A stretch of DNA of 64,000 nucleotides. Source: Actinomycetes bacterium (GTDB taxonomy: Bacteria > Actinomycetota > Thermoleophilia > BMS3ABIN01). This document shows positions 51,827-63,438 of this stretch, one piece after another. Numbering within the stretch: position 1 is the stretch's first letter; every line of letters starts with the position of its first letter. The notes beneath the pieces are model-generated. The model was not told the origin of the DNA, searched no databases, and was given only the letters and a program-made list of their open reading frames with translations. Location: NCBI GenBank assembly GCA_021791195.1, contig JAJYXB010000012.1, positions 1 to 64,000 on the forward strand, written 5' to 3'. Position numbers and translations under genes: made by a program.

Positions 51827-52873
51827 TTAGTTTTGCTGCACTATTTTACGAACTCGGGCATTTCCCCTGTCCGCCACGTACAGGTTCCCTTCGGCGTCGA
51901 TGGCGAGCCCGGACGGGTCACGGAGCCGCGCTTCGGCCGCGGGTCCGCCGTCACCCGAGAAGCCCTTCTTCTCCACGCCAGCCACGGCACTGATTATGCC
52001 CGTCGCGGCATCGAGCCGTCGCACCCGGTGCCTGGAATGATCGGCCAGATACAGGTTGCCGGCGCTGTCGACAGCCAGCCCGTCCACAAAGCCGATCCTG
52101 GCCTCGGTGCCCGGGCCGCCGTCCCCTGTGGAGCCGATCTTTCCGATTCCGACCACGGATATGATCTGGCCGGTCTGGCTGTCGATGCGCCGGATCCGGA
52201 AATTCCATGAATCGGATACATAGAGGTTGCCGCCGGAGTCGTATGCCAGGGCGCTGGGCCGGTTAAACCATGCCTTGTCGGCTGGACCGCCATCGCCCGA
52301 ATAGCCCTTCTCGCCCCGGCCTGTGACCGTCCGGATCAGGCCGCTGTCCAGGTCGATGTGCCGGACGCAGTGGTTGCCGCGGTCTGAGACGAAAAGGCCG
52401 CCTCTGGAATCCAGCGCCAGCCAGCGCGGGTCGGAGAGCATGGCGTTTACCGCCGGGCCGCCGTCACCGGAATAGCCTTCCTCGCCGGTTCCGGCGATGG
52501 TGGTAACTGTGCCGGTGGCGCCGTCGATCCGCCGCACACGCTGATTGTCTGAATCGGCGATGTACATGTTGCCCTGCGCGTCGATGACAATGCCGATGAT
52601 ATAACGAAAAAGCGCGTTCACCGCCGGGCCGCCATCTCCGCCGTAGCCTCTTTTACCTATCCCGGCAAATGTGGTGATCAGGCCGCTGTCGCGGTCAATC
52701 TGCCGGACGCAGTGGTTGAACGAGTCCGCGATATAGAGATTGCCGCTGGCATCGACCGCGAGGCCCTCAGGTTTCTTGAGCCGTGCATCGGTCGCCGGAC
52801 CGCCGTCGCCGGTATAGCCCTCCTTGCCGCTGCCGGCTATGGTCATGATCTGTGCGGTGGGGTTGGTGTCCAA
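51827..52873 (-). CDS. NHL-repeat six-bladed beta-propeller protein
   Basis: A 348-residue protein built of six repeats of ~56 residues. Each has a GYxGDGGPA turn and an LAVDASGNLYIADSFNHCVR-type NHL core, so it should fold as a six-bladed propeller. No signal peptide or membrane segment is visible. A ribosome site AAGGAGGA precedes the ATG at 52873. It lies 91 nt after egtD on the same strand and may be the third gene of that operon. NHL propellers bind ligands or act as lactonase-like scaffolds; none is indicated here. Confidence 0.85.
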   Translation of the reverse strand: MDTNPTAQIMTIAGSGKEGYTGDGGPATDARLKKPEGLAVDASGNLYIADSFNHCVRQIDRDSGLITTFAGIGKRGYGGDGGPAVNALFRYIIGIVIDAQGNMYIADSDNQRVRRIDGATGTVTTIAGTGEEGYSGDGGPAVNAMLSDPRWLALDSRGGLFVSDRGNHCVRHIDLDSGLIRTVTGRGEKGYSGDGGPADKAWFNRPSALAYDSGGNLYVSDSWNFRIRRIDSQTGQIISVVGIGKIGSTGDGGPGTEARIGFVDGLAVDSAGNLYLADHSRHRVRRLDAATGIISAVAGVEKKGFSGDGGPAAEARLRDPSGLAIDAEGNLYVADRGNARVRKIVQQN

Positions 52874-52964: not shown

Positions 52965-54032
52965 TCACGCTTTGCGCAACAGCAGCACCGCGAAGCGCTG
53001 GTTGCGGTCTGAGTAGATCTGTTCTGTATTCAGGCCGAAGGTGCACAGATAGGGCACCAGCTGCCTGAGGCGGAACTTGCGGCTGACCTCGGTGAGGATC
53101 AGCTCGCCCTTGCCGATGCGGAAGGCGCTGCCGGCGGGCGCGATCTCGATGCGCTGCTCGCGGCGGAAGCGCGCGAAGATCTCCACCCGGCGCCATTTGG
53201 GCGCGTAACGGGCGACATGGTCGATGGCGGTGACGTCCAGCGAGGCGCCCAGCTCCCGGTTCATCCGCGCGAACATGTTGCGGGTGAAGGCGGCGCTGAA
53301 GCCGGCGGCATCGTTGTAGGCGGCGTTGAGCGACGCCGCATCTTCATTGATGTCAACCCCCAGCAGGCAGTAGTCTCCCGGCAGCAGGTGCGAAGTGATC
53401 TTTCCCCAGAACTGCGAAGCTTCATGCGCATCGAGGTTGCCGACCGTGCTGCCCAGGAACAGCAGCATCGCCGGCGACAGCGACGGCAGCAGGGGGAAGG
53501 CGTCGTCGTAGGTTCCGTGCATCGCCTCGACCCGCACCTCCGGATAGAGCGCCGCGATCTCCTGTTCCGCCTGCTCAAGGATCGATTTGGAGATGTCGAC
53601 CGGCGTGTAGCAGGCCGAACCGTGGCGCCCGGCATAGGCTTCCAGCAGCAGCCGTGTCTTCACTGAGCTGCCGGAGCCCAGCTCCACCAGCGTCAATTCT
53701 CCCGTGCGTCCGGCGATGTCGGCCGCGGCGCTGGCGAGAATCGTCGCCTCGGTGCGCGTCAGATAATATTCCGGCTGCTCGCAGATGCGCTCGAAGATGA
53801 AGCTGCCGTACGTGTCATAAAGGAAGCGGCTGTCTAGCCGGCGGGGGATGTCGCTCAGGCCGCGCGCCACCGCCAGGGCGAACCCGGTTGATGTATCGCC
53901 GTCTCCTGACATTAATGCCAGTTCGCTGGCAGCTTGCGGATGGGCGACTGATTCCACCGGGACCACGTCTGGCCGCCAGTCCTCGACGAAAGGATGGCGG
54001 GCGGCGATTATCGGTTGTGAAGATATTTCCAT
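52965..54032 (-). CDS. egtD: EgtD-like L-histidine N-alpha-methyltransferase
   Basis: A 355-residue protein of the EgtD / Methyltransf_33 family. Residues 1-~42 are extra. The family start DIPRRLDSRFLYDTYGSFIF is followed by ICEQPEYYLTRTEATIL, the SAM motif LVELGSGSSVKTRLLLEAY, YTPVDISKSILEQAEQEI, and MLLFLGSTVGNLDAHEASQF. The product class trimethylates histidine to hercynine, the precursor of ergothioneine. Its ATG lies only 6 nt after the stop of the molybdopterin/desulfurase fusion gene, so the two are translationally coupled. No EgtB or EgtA gene is in the window. Confidence 0.9.
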   Translation of the reverse strand: MEISSQPIIAARHPFVEDWRPDVVPVESVAHPQAASELALMSGDGDTSTGFALAVARGLSDIPRRLDSRFLYDTYGSFIFERICEQPEYYLTRTEATILASAAADIAGRTGELTLVELGSGSSVKTRLLLEAYAGRHGSACYTPVDISKSILEQAEQEIAALYPEVRVEAMHGTYDDAFPLLPSLSPAMLLFLGSTVGNLDAHEASQFWGKITSHLLPGDYCLLGVDINEDAASLNAAYNDAAGFSAAFTRNMFARMNRELGASLDVTAIDHVARYAPKWRRVEIFARFRREQRIEIAPAGSAFRIGKGELILTEVSRKFRLRQLVPYLCTFGLNTEQIYSDRNQRFAVLLLRKA

Positions 54033-54038
54033 AATCTC

Positions 54039-57000
54039 TCAGCGGCAGGGAACAAAGCGGATGGCGCTCATCGATTCTGCCAGCACCTCTTTGAGCGCCG
54101 CCAGCGTCAGGTCGATGTCCTCCTCATTATTACCCTGACCGAGCGAAAACCGAACCGAGCAGTGTGCCTCCTCAGGGCTCAGGCCCAGCGCCAGCAGCGC
54201 GTGTGATGGATCTGGAGACCCGGATTTGCAGGCAGAACCCGAGGAGAGCGCTACGCCCTTGCGGTCCAGCTTTAGCACCAGCGATTCACCACGCATTCCC
54301 GGCAGGGTCATGTTGAGCGTGTTGGGCAGACGGGATGCCGGATCGCCGTTGACAAAAGCGCCGTCGACGAGCCCGACGACGCCGGCCTCAAGCCGGTCCC
54401 GCAGGTCCGCCACCCGCCGCATCTGCGGCAGGCGTTTGACCGCCAGCTCGGCGGCGCGGGCGAAGCCGGCGATGCAGGCCACGTTCTCGGTGCCGGCGCG
54501 CAGGCCGCCTTCCTGGCTGCCGCCGTTGATCAGCGGCGCCAGCCTGACGCCGCGGCGCACGAACAGCGCCCCCACGCCCTTGGGCGCGTGGATCTTGTGG
54601 CCGGAGACCGAGAGCAGGTCGACGCCGAGCTCCTCGACGTCGACGGGGATCTTTCCCAGCGCCTGCACGGCGTCGCAGTGGAAGAGGATGTCGCGCTCGT
54701 GCGCCAGCGCCGCCAGGTCAGCCACCGGCTGGATGACGCCGGTCTCGTTGTTGGCCAGCATCACCGAGACCAGGATAGTGTCGTCGCGGAACGCCTTCAG
54801 CAGCTCGGCCGGTGCGACCAGGCCGTCCCGTCCCACAGGCAGGCGGGTCACCGCAAACCCCAGCGCCTCGAGCGCGCGGCAGGACGCCAGAATCGCCGGA
54901 TGCTCGATGGCGGTGGTGATGACGTGGCCGCGGCCGTCCAGGCCTTCCTCCTGCCGGCGCGCGGCTGCCGCGAACGCCACGCCCTTGATGGCGGCGTTGT
55001 CGGCCTCGGAACCGCTGCCGGTGAAAACAACGCGGCGGGCGGTGCAGCCGATCGCCTGCGCCACGGAGCGGCGGGCGGCGTCGAGCGCCTCCCGGGCAGT
55101 GGCGCCGGTGCGGTGAATACTTGATGGATTACCATATTTGTGATTGAGGAAGGGCAGCATCGCCTCCACTGCTTCCGGGTCCAGCGGCGTGGTGGCGTTG
55201 TGGTCCAGATAGATGTAGCGGACCGGCGTGCGGCCGGTTATGTCCGCCTGGCCGCCAGCGGCCGGCAGGGCACAGCCATCCCCGGCATCCGGGGCACTCG
55301 CGGCCGCGGCAGCGGCACCCAGGGCACTTGCGTCCGCGGCAGCCAGGGCGCCGCCGGCCCGCGCGGGACCGGCCGCCGCATCCGCCGCCGCGCCGGTGAG
55401 AACGGGGGAGCCATCCGCGCTCCTGCCGGCGGCCGTGCCTGCCTGCCTGCGCGCCTGCACCGGCGTTACCTCACAAAGGAGTGATTTGTAAACCGGAAAA
55501 CCGGAGATGGGATCGTACCGCTGAAGGTCGGTGAGGTCGTTGACATTGCACCCGCGCCAGGCATCCGGTCCCACCGGGCCGCCGCCGCCCATGTTGGCGT
55601 CGATGGCGCCCGGGACGATGTTGGCAGTGACAAAGGCGCGGAAGCGCGCCCGTCCGCGCGGAGTCGCCACGAACACCTCGTCACCATCGGCGATGCCGCG
55701 CGCGTCCGCGTCCGCCGGGCTGATCGATACCAGTGGCTCTGGCGCCCGGGCAGCCAGGCCTTCCACGCCGTGGTGCTGCGAGCGGAAGTCGGTACGCACG
55801 CGCGCGCCCGAGTTGAACACCAGCGGGAACTTGCGCGCCAGCTCGGGCTGCGCCAGCGGTCCCTCCTTCGGCTCGGTGTAGACCGGCAGCGGCTCGTAGC
55901 CATGTTCCGCCAGCACGCTGGAGGCGATCTCGAACTTGCCAGAGGGCGTGTCGAACCCCGGCTGGCCATCGGCGCGCAGCAATCCTTTCTCCCACTTCCT
56001 GTACTGCATCATCCCGCCGGGCACGCTTACGGCGCCGCCGGCGGCGCGCACATCGTCCACGGAAAAGCCGGAACCGGCGAGCACATGCTCCAGCAGCTCC
56101 TCTTCCGACTGCGGATAGAGCTCGCCGTAGCCCAGCCGCCGCGCCAGTTCGCCCAGGACCAGCAGGTCGTTGCGCGCTTCGCCGACCGGTTCGAGCAGCC
56201 TTTCCCGGATGCGAAACATAGAGCCATAAGTCATGTATGAGGTGTTTTCAAAGCCGGTCGTCGTCGGCAGCACGATGTCGGCGTAGGCGGCATCGGCGGT
56301 CAGCTGACGGTCGATTGTGACCAGAAAGTCGAGGCTTGCAAGCGTCCGCCGCCAGATCTCGGGCTGCGGCCAGGCGGTGATGATCGAGCCGCCCAGCACG
56401 ATCAGCGACCTGATGGCGTATGGCCGCTGCTCGAGCACCGCCTCCGGCAGCGAGATCGCATGCGACTCGCCGCGGTACATGCTATAGACAGGGAAGCGGT
56501 CGCGGCCGAGCGCCTTTTTCACATTCGGATTGGCGATCAGGCCGCCGCGGTTGATGGGAAAAGCGCTGCCCGGCATGCGGAAGACGCGTCCGCCGGGCAC
56601 GTCCAGCTGGCCGGCGAGGGCCCAGAGGATCATCGTTGCGCGGATCGCCTGCACGCCGCTGTCGGAATATTCCAGCCCCGTGTACATTACCGGGCTCGCG
56701 CCGCGCGCGGCCGCCAGCCGCCGCGCCAGCCCCCTGACGGTCGCCGCCGGCACGCCCGTGATCTCTTCCACCGCCTCCGGCCGGAAATGCTGCGTGTAGC
56801 GCGCCAGCTCGTCGAAGCCGACCGTCCATTCGTCGACGAACTTCTCGTCGTAAAGGTCCTCCTCGATCAGCACCTGGATCATCCCCAGCGCCAGCGCGCC
56901 GTCGGTGCCGGGCCTGACCGGGATCCACTCGGCGCCGCTCTCGCGCGCGGTGCCATTGCGCCGCGGATCGATGACCACGATCTCGGCGCCGCGGTCGCGG

Positions 57001-57668
57001 GCGGCCAGTATCTGTTGATGCGCCAGCGGCGGGCAGTCGGTGGCGGGGTTAGAGCCCCAGACGACGACCAGCTCCGCCTGCTCCAGGTCAGAGTCCATGT
57101 TGATGAGCATCCCGCCCATGGTGACATGGGGCGCGATCATGGCGTAGGCAACGTAGCAGAGGGCGCCGACGCCGAAGGTGTTGGGCGAACCGAAGGGAAA
57201 GAGTACGCTGGACGCCGAAGACACCGCGGTATCGCGGGGCTGGTAGACATCGCACAGCGCCAGGTCGAAGCTGCCGCGGCCGGTGTAGATCCCGCAGGCC
57301 TCGGCACCATGCTCGCGTTTGATCTGCTTTAGCCGGGCGGCGATCGTCTCCATCGCCTCATCCCAGGAAATCTGCTCGAATTCGAACGAGCTGGGCGGGC
57401 CGGTGCGCCTGAGAGGATGCCGCAGCCGGTGCCTGGAATAAACCATCTCCGGCGCGTGCCGGCCAAGCCGGCAGATCATCCCCAGCGGATGGCCCTGCTG
57501 GGCGCGCGCCTCTGTGAGGCGGCCGTTGACGAGCGTCGCGGTGATCCAGCAGCCGGCCGGGCAGATGCCGCAGATGGTGTCGATGTCGATTTCGCCGGTC
57601 TGCTTTCCCTGCCCGCGCTCTCCCGCGGGCGCGTCGGCGGGGATCGCCGGATCGCCTGACAAAGACAT
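54039..57668 (-). CDS. Molybdopterin oxidoreductase-cysteine desulfurase fusion, probable metallopterin-dependent ergothioneine synthase
   Basis: Numbered from ATG 57668 (GGAGG upstream, spacing short at 2 nt; a TTG at 57707 would add 13 residues), the protein has 1,209 residues. Residues ~30-740 are a DMSO-reductase-family domain: Fe4S4 cysteines 33, 36, 40 and 66 (CGICPAGC), then FGSPNTFGVGALCYVAYAM with Cys171 as the probable Mo ligand. A ~70-residue Ala/Gly linker follows. Residues ~820-1209 are a NifS/IscS-type desulfurase starting YIYLDHNATTPLDPEAVEAM, with PLP Lys1025 (SGHKIHAPKG) and active Cys1147 (SSGSACKSGS). Coupled to egtD, it could insert cysteine-derived sulfur at hercynine C2. 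A thiosulfate/polysulfide-type reductase is the alternative. Confidence 0.82.
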   Translation of the reverse strand: MSLSGDPAIPADAPAGERGQGKQTGEIDIDTICGICPAGCWITATLVNGRLTEARAQQGHPLGMICRLGRHAPEMVYSRHRLRHPLRRTGPPSSFEFEQISWDEAMETIAARLKQIKREHGAEACGIYTGRGSFDLALCDVYQPRDTAVSSASSVLFPFGSPNTFGVGALCYVAYAMIAPHVTMGGMLINMDSDLEQAELVVVWGSNPATDCPPLAHQQILAARDRGAEIVVIDPRRNGTARESGAEWIPVRPGTDGALALGMIQVLIEEDLYDEKFVDEWTVGFDELARYTQHFRPEAVEEITGVPAATVRGLARRLAAARGASPVMYTGLEYSDSGVQAIRATMILWALAGQLDVPGGRVFRMPGSAFPINRGGLIANPNVKKALGRDRFPVYSMYRGESHAISLPEAVLEQRPYAIRSLIVLGGSIITAWPQPEIWRRTLASLDFLVTIDRQLTADAAYADIVLPTTTGFENTSYMTYGSMFRIRERLLEPVGEARNDLLVLGELARRLGYGELYPQSEEELLEHVLAGSGFSVDDVRAAGGAVSVPGGMMQYRKWEKGLLRADGQPGFDTPSGKFEIASSVLAEHGYEPLPVYTEPKEGPLAQPELARKFPLVFNSGARVRTDFRSQHHGVEGLAARAPEPLVSISPADADARGIADGDEVFVATPRGRARFRAFVTANIVPGAIDANMGGGGPVGPDAWRGCNVNDLTDLQRYDPISGFPVYKSLLCEVTPVQARRQAGTAAGRSADGSPVLTGAAADAAAGPARAGGALAAADASALGAAAAAASAPDAGDGCALPAAGGQADITGRTPVRYIYLDHNATTPLDPEAVEAMLPFLNHKYGNPSSIHRTGATAREALDAARRSVAQAIGCTARRVVFTGSGSEADNAAIKGVAFAAAARRQEEGLDGRGHVITTAIEHPAILASCRALEALGFAVTRLPVGRDGLVAPAELLKAFRDDTILVSVMLANNETGVIQPVADLAALAHERDILFHCDAVQALGKIPVDVEELGVDLLSVSGHKIHAPKGVGALFVRRGVRLAPLINGGSQEGGLRAGTENVACIAGFARAAELAVKRLPQMRRVADLRDRLEAGVVGLVDGAFVNGDPASRLPNTLNMTLPGMRGESLVLKLDRKGVALSSGSACKSGSPDPSHALLALGLSPEEAHCSVRFSLGQGNNEEDIDLTLAALKEVLAESMSAIRFVPCR

Positions 57669-57830: not shown

Positions 57831-57835
57831 GCGAA

Positions 57836-57950
57836 GAAACGCGACTGGCGTTCAGGTGGATAACCACCGGGGAGCGTTTCGGCGTCCTGGGCCTCTTGAT
57901 TTGGATGAGGCTCCGGATGCCAGCTGAAAGTGGTCGAGCGCCTGGGCCAT
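57836..57950 (+). ncRNA. ZTP (pfl) riboswitch aptamer
   Basis: The conserved core is present in order: GAAACG (57836-57841) pairing with CGTTTC (57875-57880) as P1; the invariant ACTGGCG; hairpin GGTGG-ATAA-CCACC; GGGGAGCG; and, after a ~55-nt linker, the P3 pseudoknot segment GCGCCTGGGC (57938-57947). These are the hallmarks of the ZTP/ZMP-sensing pfl motif, which switches one-carbon and purine genes on when 10-formyl-THF is short. It lies 66 nt upstream of the formate dehydrogenase start. Confidence 0.88.
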
Positions 57951-57982
57951 CCGAATGTCGATTTGGAGCGCCCGGGTTTTTT
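57941..57982 (+). terminator. Riboswitch-controlled intrinsic terminator
   Basis: CCTGGGC (57941-57947), part of the conserved aptamer P3, can pair with GCCCGGG (57970-57976), which is followed by TTTTTT. Ligand-stabilised P3 would prevent this pairing, an ON-switch layout. A second CCCGGGC at 57987-57993 can also pair with GCCCGGG, just upstream of the ribosome site. Confidence 0.75.
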
Positions 57983-58016: not shown

Positions 58017-61000
58017 ATGGCCAGACATCCCGTTTACCATCCTCTGCATCCCGATAACGGACCTCAGGTCAGCCTGTTTGTCGACGGACGTCACCTGCAG
58101 GTGCCGCACGGGATGACCATCCTGCAGGCAGCGCGGGCCAACGGCATCGAGATCCCGGCGCTATGCGACAATCCCAAGCTGATTCCGGCCGGGCGCTGCG
58201 GGCTGTGCGTGGTCGAGGTCGTGGGCGACGGCATCGTGCACGCCTGCCAGACGCCGGTCGAGGAGGGCATGGAGGTCATCAGCGAGAATCCGCAGATCGC
58301 CGACTCCCGCCGGCGGCGGCTGAACGAGTTCCTCGCCAACCACAACGCGTACTGCGAGCCGCCGTGCCATAACGCCTGCCCGGCGCGCATCGATATCCCC
58401 GGTTACCTTGGCGCCATCGCCCGGGGTGACGACGCCGAAGCGATCCGCATCGTCAAGCAGCGGCTGCCGCTGCCGCGGGTCATCGGCCGCGTCTGCCCCC
58501 GTCCCTGCGAGAGCGCCTGCCGGCGCACCCAGGTGGATGGCCAGCCGGTCGCCATCTGCCAGCTGAAGCGCTTTGCCGGCGACCGGGCAGCAGCCGAAGC
58601 CGAGGCCGCGGAGCAGGCGGCGCTCGCCGGGCTGCAGGCGCCGGCCACGGGCAAGCGGGTGGCGGTGATCGGCAGCGGCCCCTCGGGCCTGTCGGCTGCG
58701 TACTACCTGGCGCTGGACGGCCACCAGGTTACCATCTTTGAAGCAAACTCCGAGCCGGGCGGCATGATGCGCACCGGCATCCCGCCTTACCGCCTCCCCC
58801 GGGAGGTCATCGACGAAGAGGTGGCCGACATCCTCAAGCTGGGGGTGGAGCTGAAGCTCAACACCCGTCTGGGCACGGACGTCACCATCGACAGCCTGGA
58901 AGCGGACGGCTATGACTCCATATATCTGGCCGTTGGCGCCCAGCGCGGTTCGCTGGGAGGGCTGCCGGGAGCCGGCGAAGGCGCCGGAGCAGACGAAGGG
59001 ATTTACTCCGCGGTCGATTTTCTCAGGAAGAGCAACGCCGGTGAATGGGATATCCCGCTGGGACGCACGGTGGTCGTCGGCGGCGGCTTCACCGCCATGG
59101 ACGCCTGCCGCTCCGCCGTCAGGCTGGGCGCCGGCGAGGTGACGGTCGTCTACCGCCGTTCGCGCGAGGAGATGCCGGCCACCAGCGACGAGGTGGAGGC
59201 CGCCGGGCAGGAGGGGGTGACGCTCTCGCTGCTGAGCGCGCCGGTGAACGTCATCCGCGAGGGCGGGCGGGTCACGGGCGTGGTCTGCCAGAAGATGGAG
59301 CTGGGCGAGCCGGATGAGAGCGGCCGCCGCTCGCCGCGTCCGGTCGAGGGTTCGGAGTTCACTGTGTCCGCGGATACGATCATCCTTGCTATCGGCCAGG
59401 AGATCGACACCGCCGGGCTGGAAGGCCTGGTGGAGCTGGACGGCCGCGGCCGCGTCACCGCCAACCAGCTGACGCTGGCCACCAGCCGCCCGGGCGTCTT
59501 CGCCGGCGGCGACTGCCAGACCGGTCCCGCTACCGTGGTGGAGGGCATTGCCGCCGGGCGCCGCGCCGCGGTTGCCATCGGCGCCTATGTGGCGGGCGAG
59601 AGCCCGGCGGAAGCATGCAGCGCGCCGGCCGCCAGCCTGAAGAAACGCCATCCGCGGCTGTTCGAGATCGGCGCCAGGCCCAAATCGGACGCTGCCCGGC
59701 AGGCGATGCCGGAGCTGACTCCGGCCGAGCGCGGCGGTTTCGAGGAGATCGAGCTCGGCTTTGCCGAGGATGCCGCCCGGGCCGAAGCGGCCCGCTGCCT
59801 GCAGTGCACCTGCCATGCGGCATCGGCCTGCGAGCTGCAGCGCCTCTCGATCCGATACGGCGCCGGCACGACGGAATTCCGCGAGCAGGAGGGGCAGCTC
59901 GAGGTGCTGAACGGCGCTCCCATTCTCGAGCTGGACCGCAAGCGCTGCATCAAGTGCCACAAGTGCATCCGCGAATGCGACGAGGTGGTACAGTACCACG
60001 TCTATACCGTGGGCGAAAACGAGTATCCGGCCCTGCGCGCCGGCACTTATATAGATTCCGGCTGCGTCTCCTGCGGCTCGTGCGTCGAGATCTGTCCCAC
60101 GGGCGCGCTGGTGGACACGCAGCTGAAGGGCATTCATGAATGGGAAGTGGAGAAGGTCAGGACCACATGTCCGCTCTGCGGCGTCGGCTGCAACTTCGAC
60201 CTCAATGTCAGGGACGGCCGCGTACTGGGCGTTTCGTCGGCATCGGACGCGCCGGTGAACGGCCCGGCGCTCTGCGTCAAGGGCCGCTACCATTTCGACA
60301 TGATCCACAGCCCCGAGCGGCTGACTACGCCGCTGATCAGGGAAAACGGCGCCTTCCGCGAGGCCACCTGGGACGAGGCGCTCGACCTGGTGGCCGCCCG
60401 CTTCGGCGAGATCCGCGACCGTCACGGCAGCGACGCCCTGGCGGCCCTGAGCTCCGCGCGCTGCACCAACGAGGAAAACTGGTTGATGCAGAAGTTCGCC
60501 AGGGTGGTGATGGGCACCAACAACGTAGATCATTGTGCCCGCACCTGACACGCTCCCACGGTGGCCGGTCTGGCCATCTCGTTCGGGAGCGGAGCGATGA
60601 CGAACTCCATCAGCGAAGTCGGTTTTTATGACGCGCTGCTCATAATCGGTTCCAATGCCACCGAGGCGCACCCGATCATCGGCAGCAAGATGAAGCGGGC
60701 CGCCTGCCGCGGCGCGCGCGTGATCGTTGCCGATCCCCGGCAGATCGAGCTGGCGGATTACGCCGAGTTGTGGCTGCGGCTCAGGCCCGGCACCGACGCC
60801 GCCCTGGTCAACGGCCTGATCAACATCATCGTCAGCGAAGGCTGGCACGACCGGGATTTCATCGCGCAGCGCTGCGAGGGTTTTGACAAGATGTGGAAAG
60901 TTGTCAAGAACTATCCGCTGGCCCGGGTGAGCGAAATCACCGGCGTGCCCGAGGACAAGCTTTATGCCGCCGCAGAGATCTACGCCAAGACACGGCGGGC

Positions 61001-62198
61001 CGGCATCTTCTATACCCTCGGCATCACCGAGCACACCACCGGCACCGCCAACGTCATGAACCTCGCCAACCTGGCGATGGTCACCGGCCACGTCGGCGTC
61101 GAGCATGCCGGTGTCAATCCGCTACGCGGCCAGAACAACGTCCAGGGCGCCTGCGACATGGGCGCGCTGCCGAACCTGCTGCCGGGCTACCGATCGGTGG
61201 ACGAGGCCGGCAATGTCGACTACTTCGAGCGCGAGTGGGGGACCAGCCTGAGCAGCGTCTCCGGGCTGCGCATCCCGGAGATGTTCGACTCCATCCTCGG
61301 CGGCGACGTTAAGGGGATGTACATCATGGGCGAGGATCCGGTGCTTACCGACCCGGACTCCAACCATGTGCGCAAAGCGATCGACAGCCTCGATTTCCTG
61401 GTGGTGCAGGACATCTTCATGTCGGAGACGGCCAGCCTCGCCGACGTCGTCCTGCCGGCGGCGCTCTATGCGGAGAAGGACGGCACCTTCACCAATACCG
61501 AGCGCCGCGTCCAGCGGGTGCGCAGGGCGGTGGACGCTCCCGGCGAGGCCCGGGCCGACTGGGAGATCATCTGTGACCTGGCCGGCCGCATGGGCACGCC
61601 GATGGAATACGAATCACCCGAGGCCGTCTTTGAGGAGATCCGGAGCATGACGCCGGCATATGCGGGCATCACCTATGCCCGTCTGGACATCGCCGGGCTG
61701 CAATGGCCCTGCCCCGATACCGAGCATCCGGGCACGCCGTTTTTGCATCAGACCGGCTTCCCCCGCGGGAAGGGCCTGCTGCAGGGCATCGAACACCTCG
61801 AGCCGGCGGAGCTGACCAGTGAGGAATATCCGATCCTGCTGACCACCGGTCGCAGGCTCTATCATTACAATGTGTCAACCAGGAACTCGCAGCTGCTCGA
61901 TGGCCTGATGCCACATGAGCTGGCTGAAGTCAACCCCGCCGACGCCGCACGCCTCGGTCTCGCCGAGGGCGACGCGGTCCGGGTGAGCTCGCGCCGCGGG
62001 ACGGTCACATCCCGGGTGACGCTGACGGAGAAAGTGCCCGAGGGCACGGTCTTCATGACGTTCCATTTCCGGGAGACGCCAGTGAACAAGCTGACCAACT
62101 CCGTCTATGACCCGATCGCCCTGACGGCGGAATATAAGGTGTGCGCCGTCAGGATGGAGAAACTGGGCCCGGGTGAGAGCGGCGGCCCGGAAGGGTAA
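58017..62198 (+). CDS. fdhA: Selenocysteine formate dehydrogenase fused to 2Fe-2S and GltD-like flavin modules
   Basis: One 1,393-residue protein if the in-frame TGA at 60546-60548 is read as selenocysteine (Sec844, in NNVDHCART-U-HAPTVAGLA, the invariant formate dehydrogenase active site). Modules in order: 2Fe-2S (Cys50, 61, 64, 77); GltD-type cysteine region (CPARIDIPGY at ~121); FAD motif IGSGPSGLSAAYY at ~218; NAD(P) motif VVVGGGFTAMDAC; ferredoxin sites CIKCHKCIREC and CVSCGSCVEICPTGAL; FDH Fe4S4 CPLCGVGCNFD; Mo-bis-PGD domains to the end. It should couple formate/CO2 to NAD(P)H in one soluble chain. ATG 58017 follows GAAAGGGC. Expression is set by the ZTP riboswitch. Confidence 0.92.
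60551..60591 (+). promoter_or_regulatory. Bacterial SECIS element
   Basis: Starting 2 nt after the UGA, CGCTCCC (60551-60557) pairs perfectly with GGGAGCG (60585-60591), ACG with CGT, and GTGGCC (60561-60566) with GGCCAT (60572-60577), closing a GGTCT loop. The GGUCU apical loop is the same as in E. coli fdhF, where SelB binds. Confidence 0.88.
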
Positions 62199-62567: not shown

Positions 62568-62590
62568 CGTTATGCAAGACAGACATAACG
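62568..62590 (+). promoter_or_regulatory. ModE-box-like operator upstream of modA
   Basis: CGTTATG-CAAGACAGA-CATAACG has 7-bp arms and closely resembles the E. coli ModE site (CGTTAT ... ATAACG). It contains the upstream in-frame ATG 62572, which argues that modA starts later, at 62611. Confidence 0.7.
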
Positions 62591-62610
62591 AAACGGAAGC
62601 AGTACATGAA

Positions 62611-63438
62611 ATGAAGACGTACACGAAATATATCAGGCTATCAACCAGGCTGCCGGCGCTGCTGTTCCTGCTGGCCGGCGTGGCCGTGGCGGCCGCCGGC
62701 TGTGGCTCCGGCGCCCAGGGACAGGGAACGGGCGGGCAGCAGACGCTGACGGTCTCGGCCGCCATTAGCCTGCAGGATGCCTTCACCGAGCTGGGCAGGG
62801 CCTTCGAGGCGGCGCACCCCGGGGTCAGCGTCCAGTTCAACTTCGGCGCTTCCGGTGACCTCGAGAGCCAGATCGAGGGCGGCGCGCCGGTGGACGTCTT
62901 CGCCGCTGCCTCCACCAGGGAGACCGGCGAGCTGGCGCAAAAAGGGCTGATCGACGCCGCCGGGGTGATCCGGCCGGTGGGCAACGACCTGGTGCTGACG
63001 GTGCCGTCCGGCGCCACGGCGCAGTTCGGCGCGTTTGCCGATCTGGCCCGGGGCGCCTCCGGCAAGATCGCCATCGGCAATCCCGCCACGGTGCCGGCGG
63101 GCCGCTACGCGCGCGATACGCTGACGCATTTCGGCCTCTGGGATGCGCTCAAGCCCCGGCTGGTCTACGGCGAGAGCGTGCGCCAGGTGCTGGACTATGT
63201 CGCCCGCGGCGAGGTTGACGCGGGCCTGGTCTATGCTACCGATGCCCGCGCCCGCGCCTCGGAAGTGAGGGTGGCGCTTTCGGCGCCGGCTGACAGCCAC
63301 GCGCCGGTGACCTATCCGATGGCGGTGGTGTCCGGCAGCGCGAACCGCGCCCTGGCGGGGCAGTTCCTCGCTTTCCTGGGCTCGGCCGCCGCCCGCCCGG
63401 TCTTCGAGAAATACGGTTTCAGGTGGCTCCTTGGATAG
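62611..63438 (+). CDS. modA: Molybdate ABC transporter substrate-binding lipoprotein
   Basis: A 275-residue protein from ATG 62611. The signal peptide (LPALLFLLAGVAVAAAGC) ends in a lipobox with Cys, so it is membrane-tethered. The ModA fold is recognised by LTVSAAISLQDAFTELGRAF, VQFNFGASGDLESQIEGGAP, VDVFAAAS, the LVYGESVRQVLDYVARGEVD hinge and DAGLVYATDA. It captures molybdate (or tungstate) for the enzymes encoded next to it. Likely repressed through the ModE box when molybdate is sufficient. Confidence 0.93.
   Translation: MKTYTKYIRLSTRLPALLFLLAGVAVAAAGCGSGAQGQGTGGQQTLTVSAAISLQDAFTELGRAFEAAHPGVSVQFNFGASGDLESQIEGGAPVDVFAAASTRETGELAQKGLIDAAGVIRPVGNDLVLTVPSGATAQFGAFADLARGASGKIAIGNPATVPAGRYARDTLTHFGLWDALKPRLVYGESVRQVLDYVARGEVDAGLVYATDARARASEVRVALSAPADSHAPVTYPMAVVSGSANRALAGQFLAFLGSAAARPVFEKYGFRWLLG

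Follow-up and report, generated by a model that had tools for sequence, protein, structure and literature searches.

The window analysed is a stretch of 64,000 nucleotides of contig JAJYXB010000012.1 of an Actinomycetes bacterium, which carries two adjoining genes encoding a predicted metallopterin-dependent ergothioneine synthase (MES) and an L-histidine N-alpha-methyltransferase (EgtD). The following features were assigned, the reference enzyme being the MES of Caldithrix abyssi (CaMES):

54039–57668, minus strand: MES gene, predicted metallopterin-dependent ergothioneine synthase, 1209 aa (Pfam/NCBIfam domains, CaMES residue numbering, 22-row alignment and tree)
52965–54032, minus strand: EgtD gene, L-histidine N-alpha-methyltransferase, 355 aa (TIGR03438 above the curated cut-off; alignment to EgtD crystal structures)
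55215–55460, minus strand: Ala/Gly linker of MES, residues 737–818 (22-row alignment)
57252–57254, minus strand: Cys139 codon, within the CD-x2-Q motif; the residue is proposed to accept sulfur (present in every fused MES compared, absent from the stand-alone modules)
57156–57158, minus strand: Cys171 codon; the residue is the candidate for the only protein ligand of Mo/W and is equivalent to CaMES Cys153 (invariant in 31 fused rows)
54045–54047, minus strand: codon of Cys1208, penultimate residue and putative relay cysteine, equivalent to CaMES Cys1135 (numbering against CaMES, alignment)

The MES gene was a single uninterrupted ORF, coding for 1209 residues if translation starts at the ATG at 57668; a start at an alternative in-frame TTG (57707) would lengthen the product by 13 residues. 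Its product comprised a Mo/W-bis-MGD module (residues ~28–736), the linker (residues 737–818) and a cysteine desulfurase (residues 819–1209). According to Pfam, the N-terminal half contained the Molybdop_Fe4S4, Molybdopterin and Molydop_binding domains (residues 30–729), the match to the first of these being marginal (22.3 bits vs. a cut-off of 22.7), and the C-terminal half contained Aminotran_5 (residues 819–1186), while the best NCBIfam model for this half was NifS, with a score below the equivalog cut-off. Alanine or glycine accounted for 44 of the 82 linker residues. This linker was the longest among the 22 fused enzymes compared (27–52 residues in the others), and its length is owed partly to a 30-bp tandem duplication at 55283–55343. 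The fusion of a Mo enzyme through a linker to a NifS-type desulfurase, claimed in an earlier sequence-only reading of this DNA, was thus recovered as one intact frame. It should be noted that the duplication within the linker, as well as the draft state of the assembly, would suit an assembly join or a frame artefact of two adjoining genes; however, 25 further records, isolates included, contain the same fusion, as do three near-complete genomes from within the genus, and this explanation is regarded as already refuted.

The metallopterin enzyme of Caldithrix abyssi named in that reading proved to be real: MES was described from this organism by Beliaeva & Seebeck 2022 (PMC9516567), and the protein studied here agrees with it wherever the paper numbers residues, the comparison being one of published residue numbers. 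In CaMES (1136 residues), these are the Fe4S4 cysteines Cys14/17/21/48, the ligand Cys153, Lys952, Cys1074, Cys1097 and Cys1135 (PMC9516567). The corresponding residues in the MES of the window were Cys33/36/40/66, the candidate metal ligand Cys171, the PLP lysine Lys1025, the persulfide cysteine Cys1147, Cys1170 and the penultimate Cys1208, so that the Fe4S4 cysteines, the probable Mo-ligand cysteine and the complete desulfurase active site reported earlier were all located. The spacing within the Fe4S4 motif was 3, 4 and 26 vs. 3, 4 and 27 in CaMES, and the linker of 82 residues differed from that of 28 residues implied for CaMES (719–746). The distances from the last Fe4S4 cysteine to the ligand cysteine (105), from the lysine to the persulfide cysteine (122), between the three desulfurase cysteines (23 and 38) and from the last cysteine to the C-terminus (1) were equal in both proteins. 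The Fe4S4 cysteines, the ligand cysteine, the PLP lysine and the three desulfurase cysteines were invariant across the 22 aligned fused homologues, and Cys171 was likewise invariant in the wider set of 31 fused rows. A cysteine next to the C-terminus is not known as a feature of ordinary NifS/IscS proteins. In CaMES, the penultimate Cys1135 is essential (PMC9516567). An AlphaFold model of residues 20–1209 built from 22 rows had a mean pLDDT of 60.7 and a pTM of 0.42, with the Mo module mostly poor, and was too weak for a test of the relay geometry.

The EgtD gene is located downstream of the MES gene on the same strand, with an intergenic gap of 6 nt. Its product scored 303.5 bits with the TIGR03438 equivalog model (curated cut-off 290.9), and EgtD crystal structures aligned to it across the whole catalytic domain (1e-60), which bears out the earlier description of an EgtD-like gene at this place. 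The residues that contact histidine in M. smegmatis EgtD (Tyr39, Tyr56, Asn166, Tyr206, Glu282 and Ser284) all appear identical in the alignment. An EgtD gene adjoined nearly all of the fused homologues.

When one genome per species was scanned, 25 further fusion loci (L002–L026) emerged, some of them cut short or broken by a frame shift. They came from deltaproteobacterial groups, methanogens (Methanoculleus and relatives), Acidobacteriota, Gemmatimonadota, a Rokubacteria MAG, a Myxococcales MAG and Actinomycetes MAGs; the isolates carrying the fusion included Geotalea sp. SG265, Pelotalea chapellei and Methanoculleus sp. FWC-SCC1. The closest fused homologue belonged to an Actinomycetes MAG (80% identity). 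In a quick ML tree of Mo modules, built without CaMES itself, the fused enzymes fell together with a stand-alone sister in a single clade (SH-aLRT 100), within which the MES of the window grouped with its genus. This clade was nearest to acetylene hydratase and separate from polysulfide reductase (PSR) and from the remaining DMSOR-type enzymes in the tree, the exact order of the outgroups being unsure because of their long branches. Since the Mo module fell in the MES clade apart from PSR, the tree did not yield the placement among sulfur or arsenic oxyanion reductases that had been named as evidence against the proposal.

The cofactors of formate dehydrogenase and of enzymes of the xanthine oxidase family are known to receive sulfur from desulfurases, and the Mo module of MES is similar in sequence to PhsA/PsrA-type enzymes (PDB 2vpw, 1e-57). 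Both points would favour an ordinary Mo reductase of the polysulfide/thiosulfate or arsenate type, in which the fused desulfurase only matures the enzyme's own cofactor, but this is considered highly improbable in view of the position in the tree and of an operon devoid of any electron-transfer or membrane subunit. The best solved relative of the module, moreover, was the acetylene hydratase of Syntrophotalea acetylenica (PDB 2e7z, 3e-65), which shares with it the Fe4S4 cluster and the Cys ligand but has no desulfurase and no EgtD and catalyzes a different reaction; acetylene hydratase is also the relative named for CaMES (PMC9516567). Finally, in a CaMES desulfurase mutant the Mo site was still active and could exchange sulfur (PMC9516567), which argues that the desulfurase serves turnover and not maturation.

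The textbook ergothioneine route of Actinomycetota is O2-dependent and employs EgtB. Among 397 genomes of the phylum searched with an MES-module profile, the module was detected in 12, namely, in 11 as a fusion (including G145, whose contig ends inside the Mo module and which was counted as fused by its tree position) and in one, G209, as a stand-alone protein. EgtD was present in all 11 fusion genomes vs. 99 of the 386 others (110 of 397 in total; Fisher p = 5e-7, for lineages that are not independent), as well as in all 24 genomes behind loci L003–L026. Genome G303 of the same genus seemed to be free of MES, but the desulfurase half and EgtD were found at a contig end. In G465, which lies outside the phylum sample, is 89% complete and has its fusion cut at a contig end, no EgtD was found. 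The host genome (97.5% complete, a draft assembly of 27 contigs, in which absences are not absolute) contained one EgtD. EgtB (TIGR03440) was found neither in it nor in the other MES genomes of the phylum, and among the 24 genomes reached via the other loci, a fusion together with EgtB above the cut-off occurred solely in the Myxococcales MAG (G401). The combination of fusion and EgtD without EgtB, proposed in the sequence-only reading as a check, is now supported by a sampled survey. The pathway resembles the EgtB-type O2-dependent one in that hercynine would come from EgtD and differs from it in the absence of EgtB. With the anaerobic EanB pathway it would share independence of O2 and an EgtD-like first step; unlike the latter, which uses a polysulfide donor and a rhodanese fold, no EanB match was obtained here. 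Specifically, of the 13 rhodanese matches in the host genome, three multi-domain proteins were compared as EanB candidates and were rejected, as they matched only ordinary rhodaneses and no EanB structure in the PDB. Several multi-domain rhodanese proteins encoded on host contigs C8, C9 and C25 (L065–L068) had signal-peptide-like or lipoprotein-like N termini. No COX1 oxidase was found in the host genome at its 97.5% completeness, which is in line with an anaerobic life of the host, without proving it.

The gene pair corresponds to CaMES (PMC9516567) in domain order, in the functional residues listed above, in the presence of EgtD alongside and in the lack of EgtB, with no EanB match among the three rhodaneses compared; the host here belongs, in contrast, to an Actinomycetota-related lineage. 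Ergothioneine production has been found in assays of four fused homologues belonging to different lineages (PMC9516567). The MES-EgtD pair is interpreted, with a probability of about 0.94, as an MES-type operon for ergothioneine synthesis without O2, and would be expected to produce ergothioneine. The enzyme class has been known since 2022 from Caldithrix abyssi, and the protein described here is a new, firmly placed member of the family; the most recently described ergothioneine route thereby gains securely placed representatives in a lineage near Actinomycetota. By analogy with CaMES, EgtD would form hercynine, as its family predicts, and the C-terminal PLP desulfurase (Lys1025) would take up the sulfur of L-cysteine, forming a persulfide at Cys1147. 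This sulfur would pass to the C-terminal Cys1208 and on to the bis-MGD centre of the same chain, held by Cys171 and presumably containing Mo or W in this protein, which would thus be resulfurated. The imidazole C2 of hercynine would then attack the metal sulfido ligand, which would yield ergothioneine and leave the metal reduced, so that it can accept another sulfur. CaMES needs the equivalents of Lys1025, Cys1147, Cys1208 and Cys171, and its intramolecular sulfur transfer and cysteine desulfurase activity have been demonstrated, while the attack by hercynine is the mechanism proposed by its authors (PMC9516567).

Two genomes of the same class as the host contained the Mo module without a desulfurase and contained no EgtD:

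L084:8525–10756, minus strand: stand-alone MES-like Mo module of G209
L135:7495–9642, minus strand: stand-alone MES-like Mo module of G572

The G209 module was 54–55% identical to the Mo module of the window and 71% identical to that of G572, and in the ML tree it was sister to all fused enzymes (support 94) on a long branch. Since these modules occur without EgtD, the link between this Mo fold and hercynine is not a fixed one, and related Mo enzymes may sulfurate other heterocycles, as the authors of the CaMES study suggest (PMC9516567). Accordingly, the fusion might act on another histidine derivative or heterocycle (histidine, partly methylated histidine or another imidazole), with an end product other than ergothioneine. 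This is judged very unlikely, given the EgtD gene 6 nt downstream with its score above the equivalog cut-off, the adjacency of EgtD to nearly all fused homologues and the ergothioneine formed by the four homologues assayed (PMC9516567), and synthesis of ergothioneine remains the preferred reading.

The stand-alone modules resembled the fused ones in retaining the Fe4S4 cysteines and the ligand cysteine; Cys171 and Cys732 were kept in both groups (31 fused vs. 2 stand-alone sequences). The most striking block confined to the fused enzymes was Cys139-Asp140-x2-Gln143, invariant in 31 of 31 fused sequences and replaced by Asn-Glu-x2-Ala in both stand-alone ones. This sequence correlation, drawn from only two stand-alone examples, makes Cys139 a candidate sulfur-accepting residue of the Mo module, substrate choice being an equally possible reason for the motif; a relay step of this type goes beyond the main text of the CaMES paper (PMC9516567). 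A tentative and rather doubtful scenario would be that a stand-alone Mo enzyme, of the kind that persists in the related genomes G209 and G572, acquired a desulfurase, a penultimate cysteine and, in its N-terminal module, the Cys139-Asp140-x2-Gln143 motif to become the fused hercynine sulfurase, in which Cys139 might serve as a persulfide acceptor near the metal, while the stand-alone form would act on a different substrate. The stand-alone sister modules and the fused-only CD-x2-Q motif extend what has been published on MES, and they provide a direct handle on sulfur delivery to the Mo/W centre and on the evolution of a Mo enzyme forming C–S bonds. The neighbours of the stand-alone genes looked catabolic: one gene adjoined a Fae-family gene and an enolase-superfamily-like gene, and the other adjoined a sugar isomerase-like gene. 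Two further ideas about these modules were rejected. A histidine link, considered on account of his genes nearby in G209, was dropped because no neighbour was common to G572, and an internal TGA in G209, considered as a selenocysteine form, turned out to lie beyond the module, where it simply terminates the stand-alone gene.

An NHL-repeat beta-propeller protein is encoded at 51827–52873 on the minus strand, 92 nt after EgtD; since its homologue was not adjacent to EgtD in the related locus L086, membership in the MES-EgtD operon is unlikely. Divergently from this operon, a ZMP/ZTP riboswitch (RF01750; 50.1 bits vs. a cut-off of 39) was found at 57831–57954 on the plus strand, directly upstream of a formate dehydrogenase gene starting at 58017, and three other members of the genus have it at the corresponding position. 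In a literature search, no paper was found that names the ZTP riboswitch (or pfl motif) together with formate dehydrogenase. The formate dehydrogenase-type gene (58017–62198, plus strand) encodes a protein whose N-terminal part is a glutamate-synthase-like NAD(P)/FAD module, and contains an in-frame TGA at 60546 in the context VDHCART-U-HAP, followed by a stem-loop; SelB is present in the genome, and the product is a probable selenocysteine enzyme. A ModA molybdate-binding protein is encoded at 62572–63438 on the plus strand, close to the Mo enzymes, and ModA also adjoins formate dehydrogenase in the 80%-identical relative. A fluoride riboswitch was detected at L022:7956–8037 on the plus strand, near the MES locus of bacterium BMS3Abin01.
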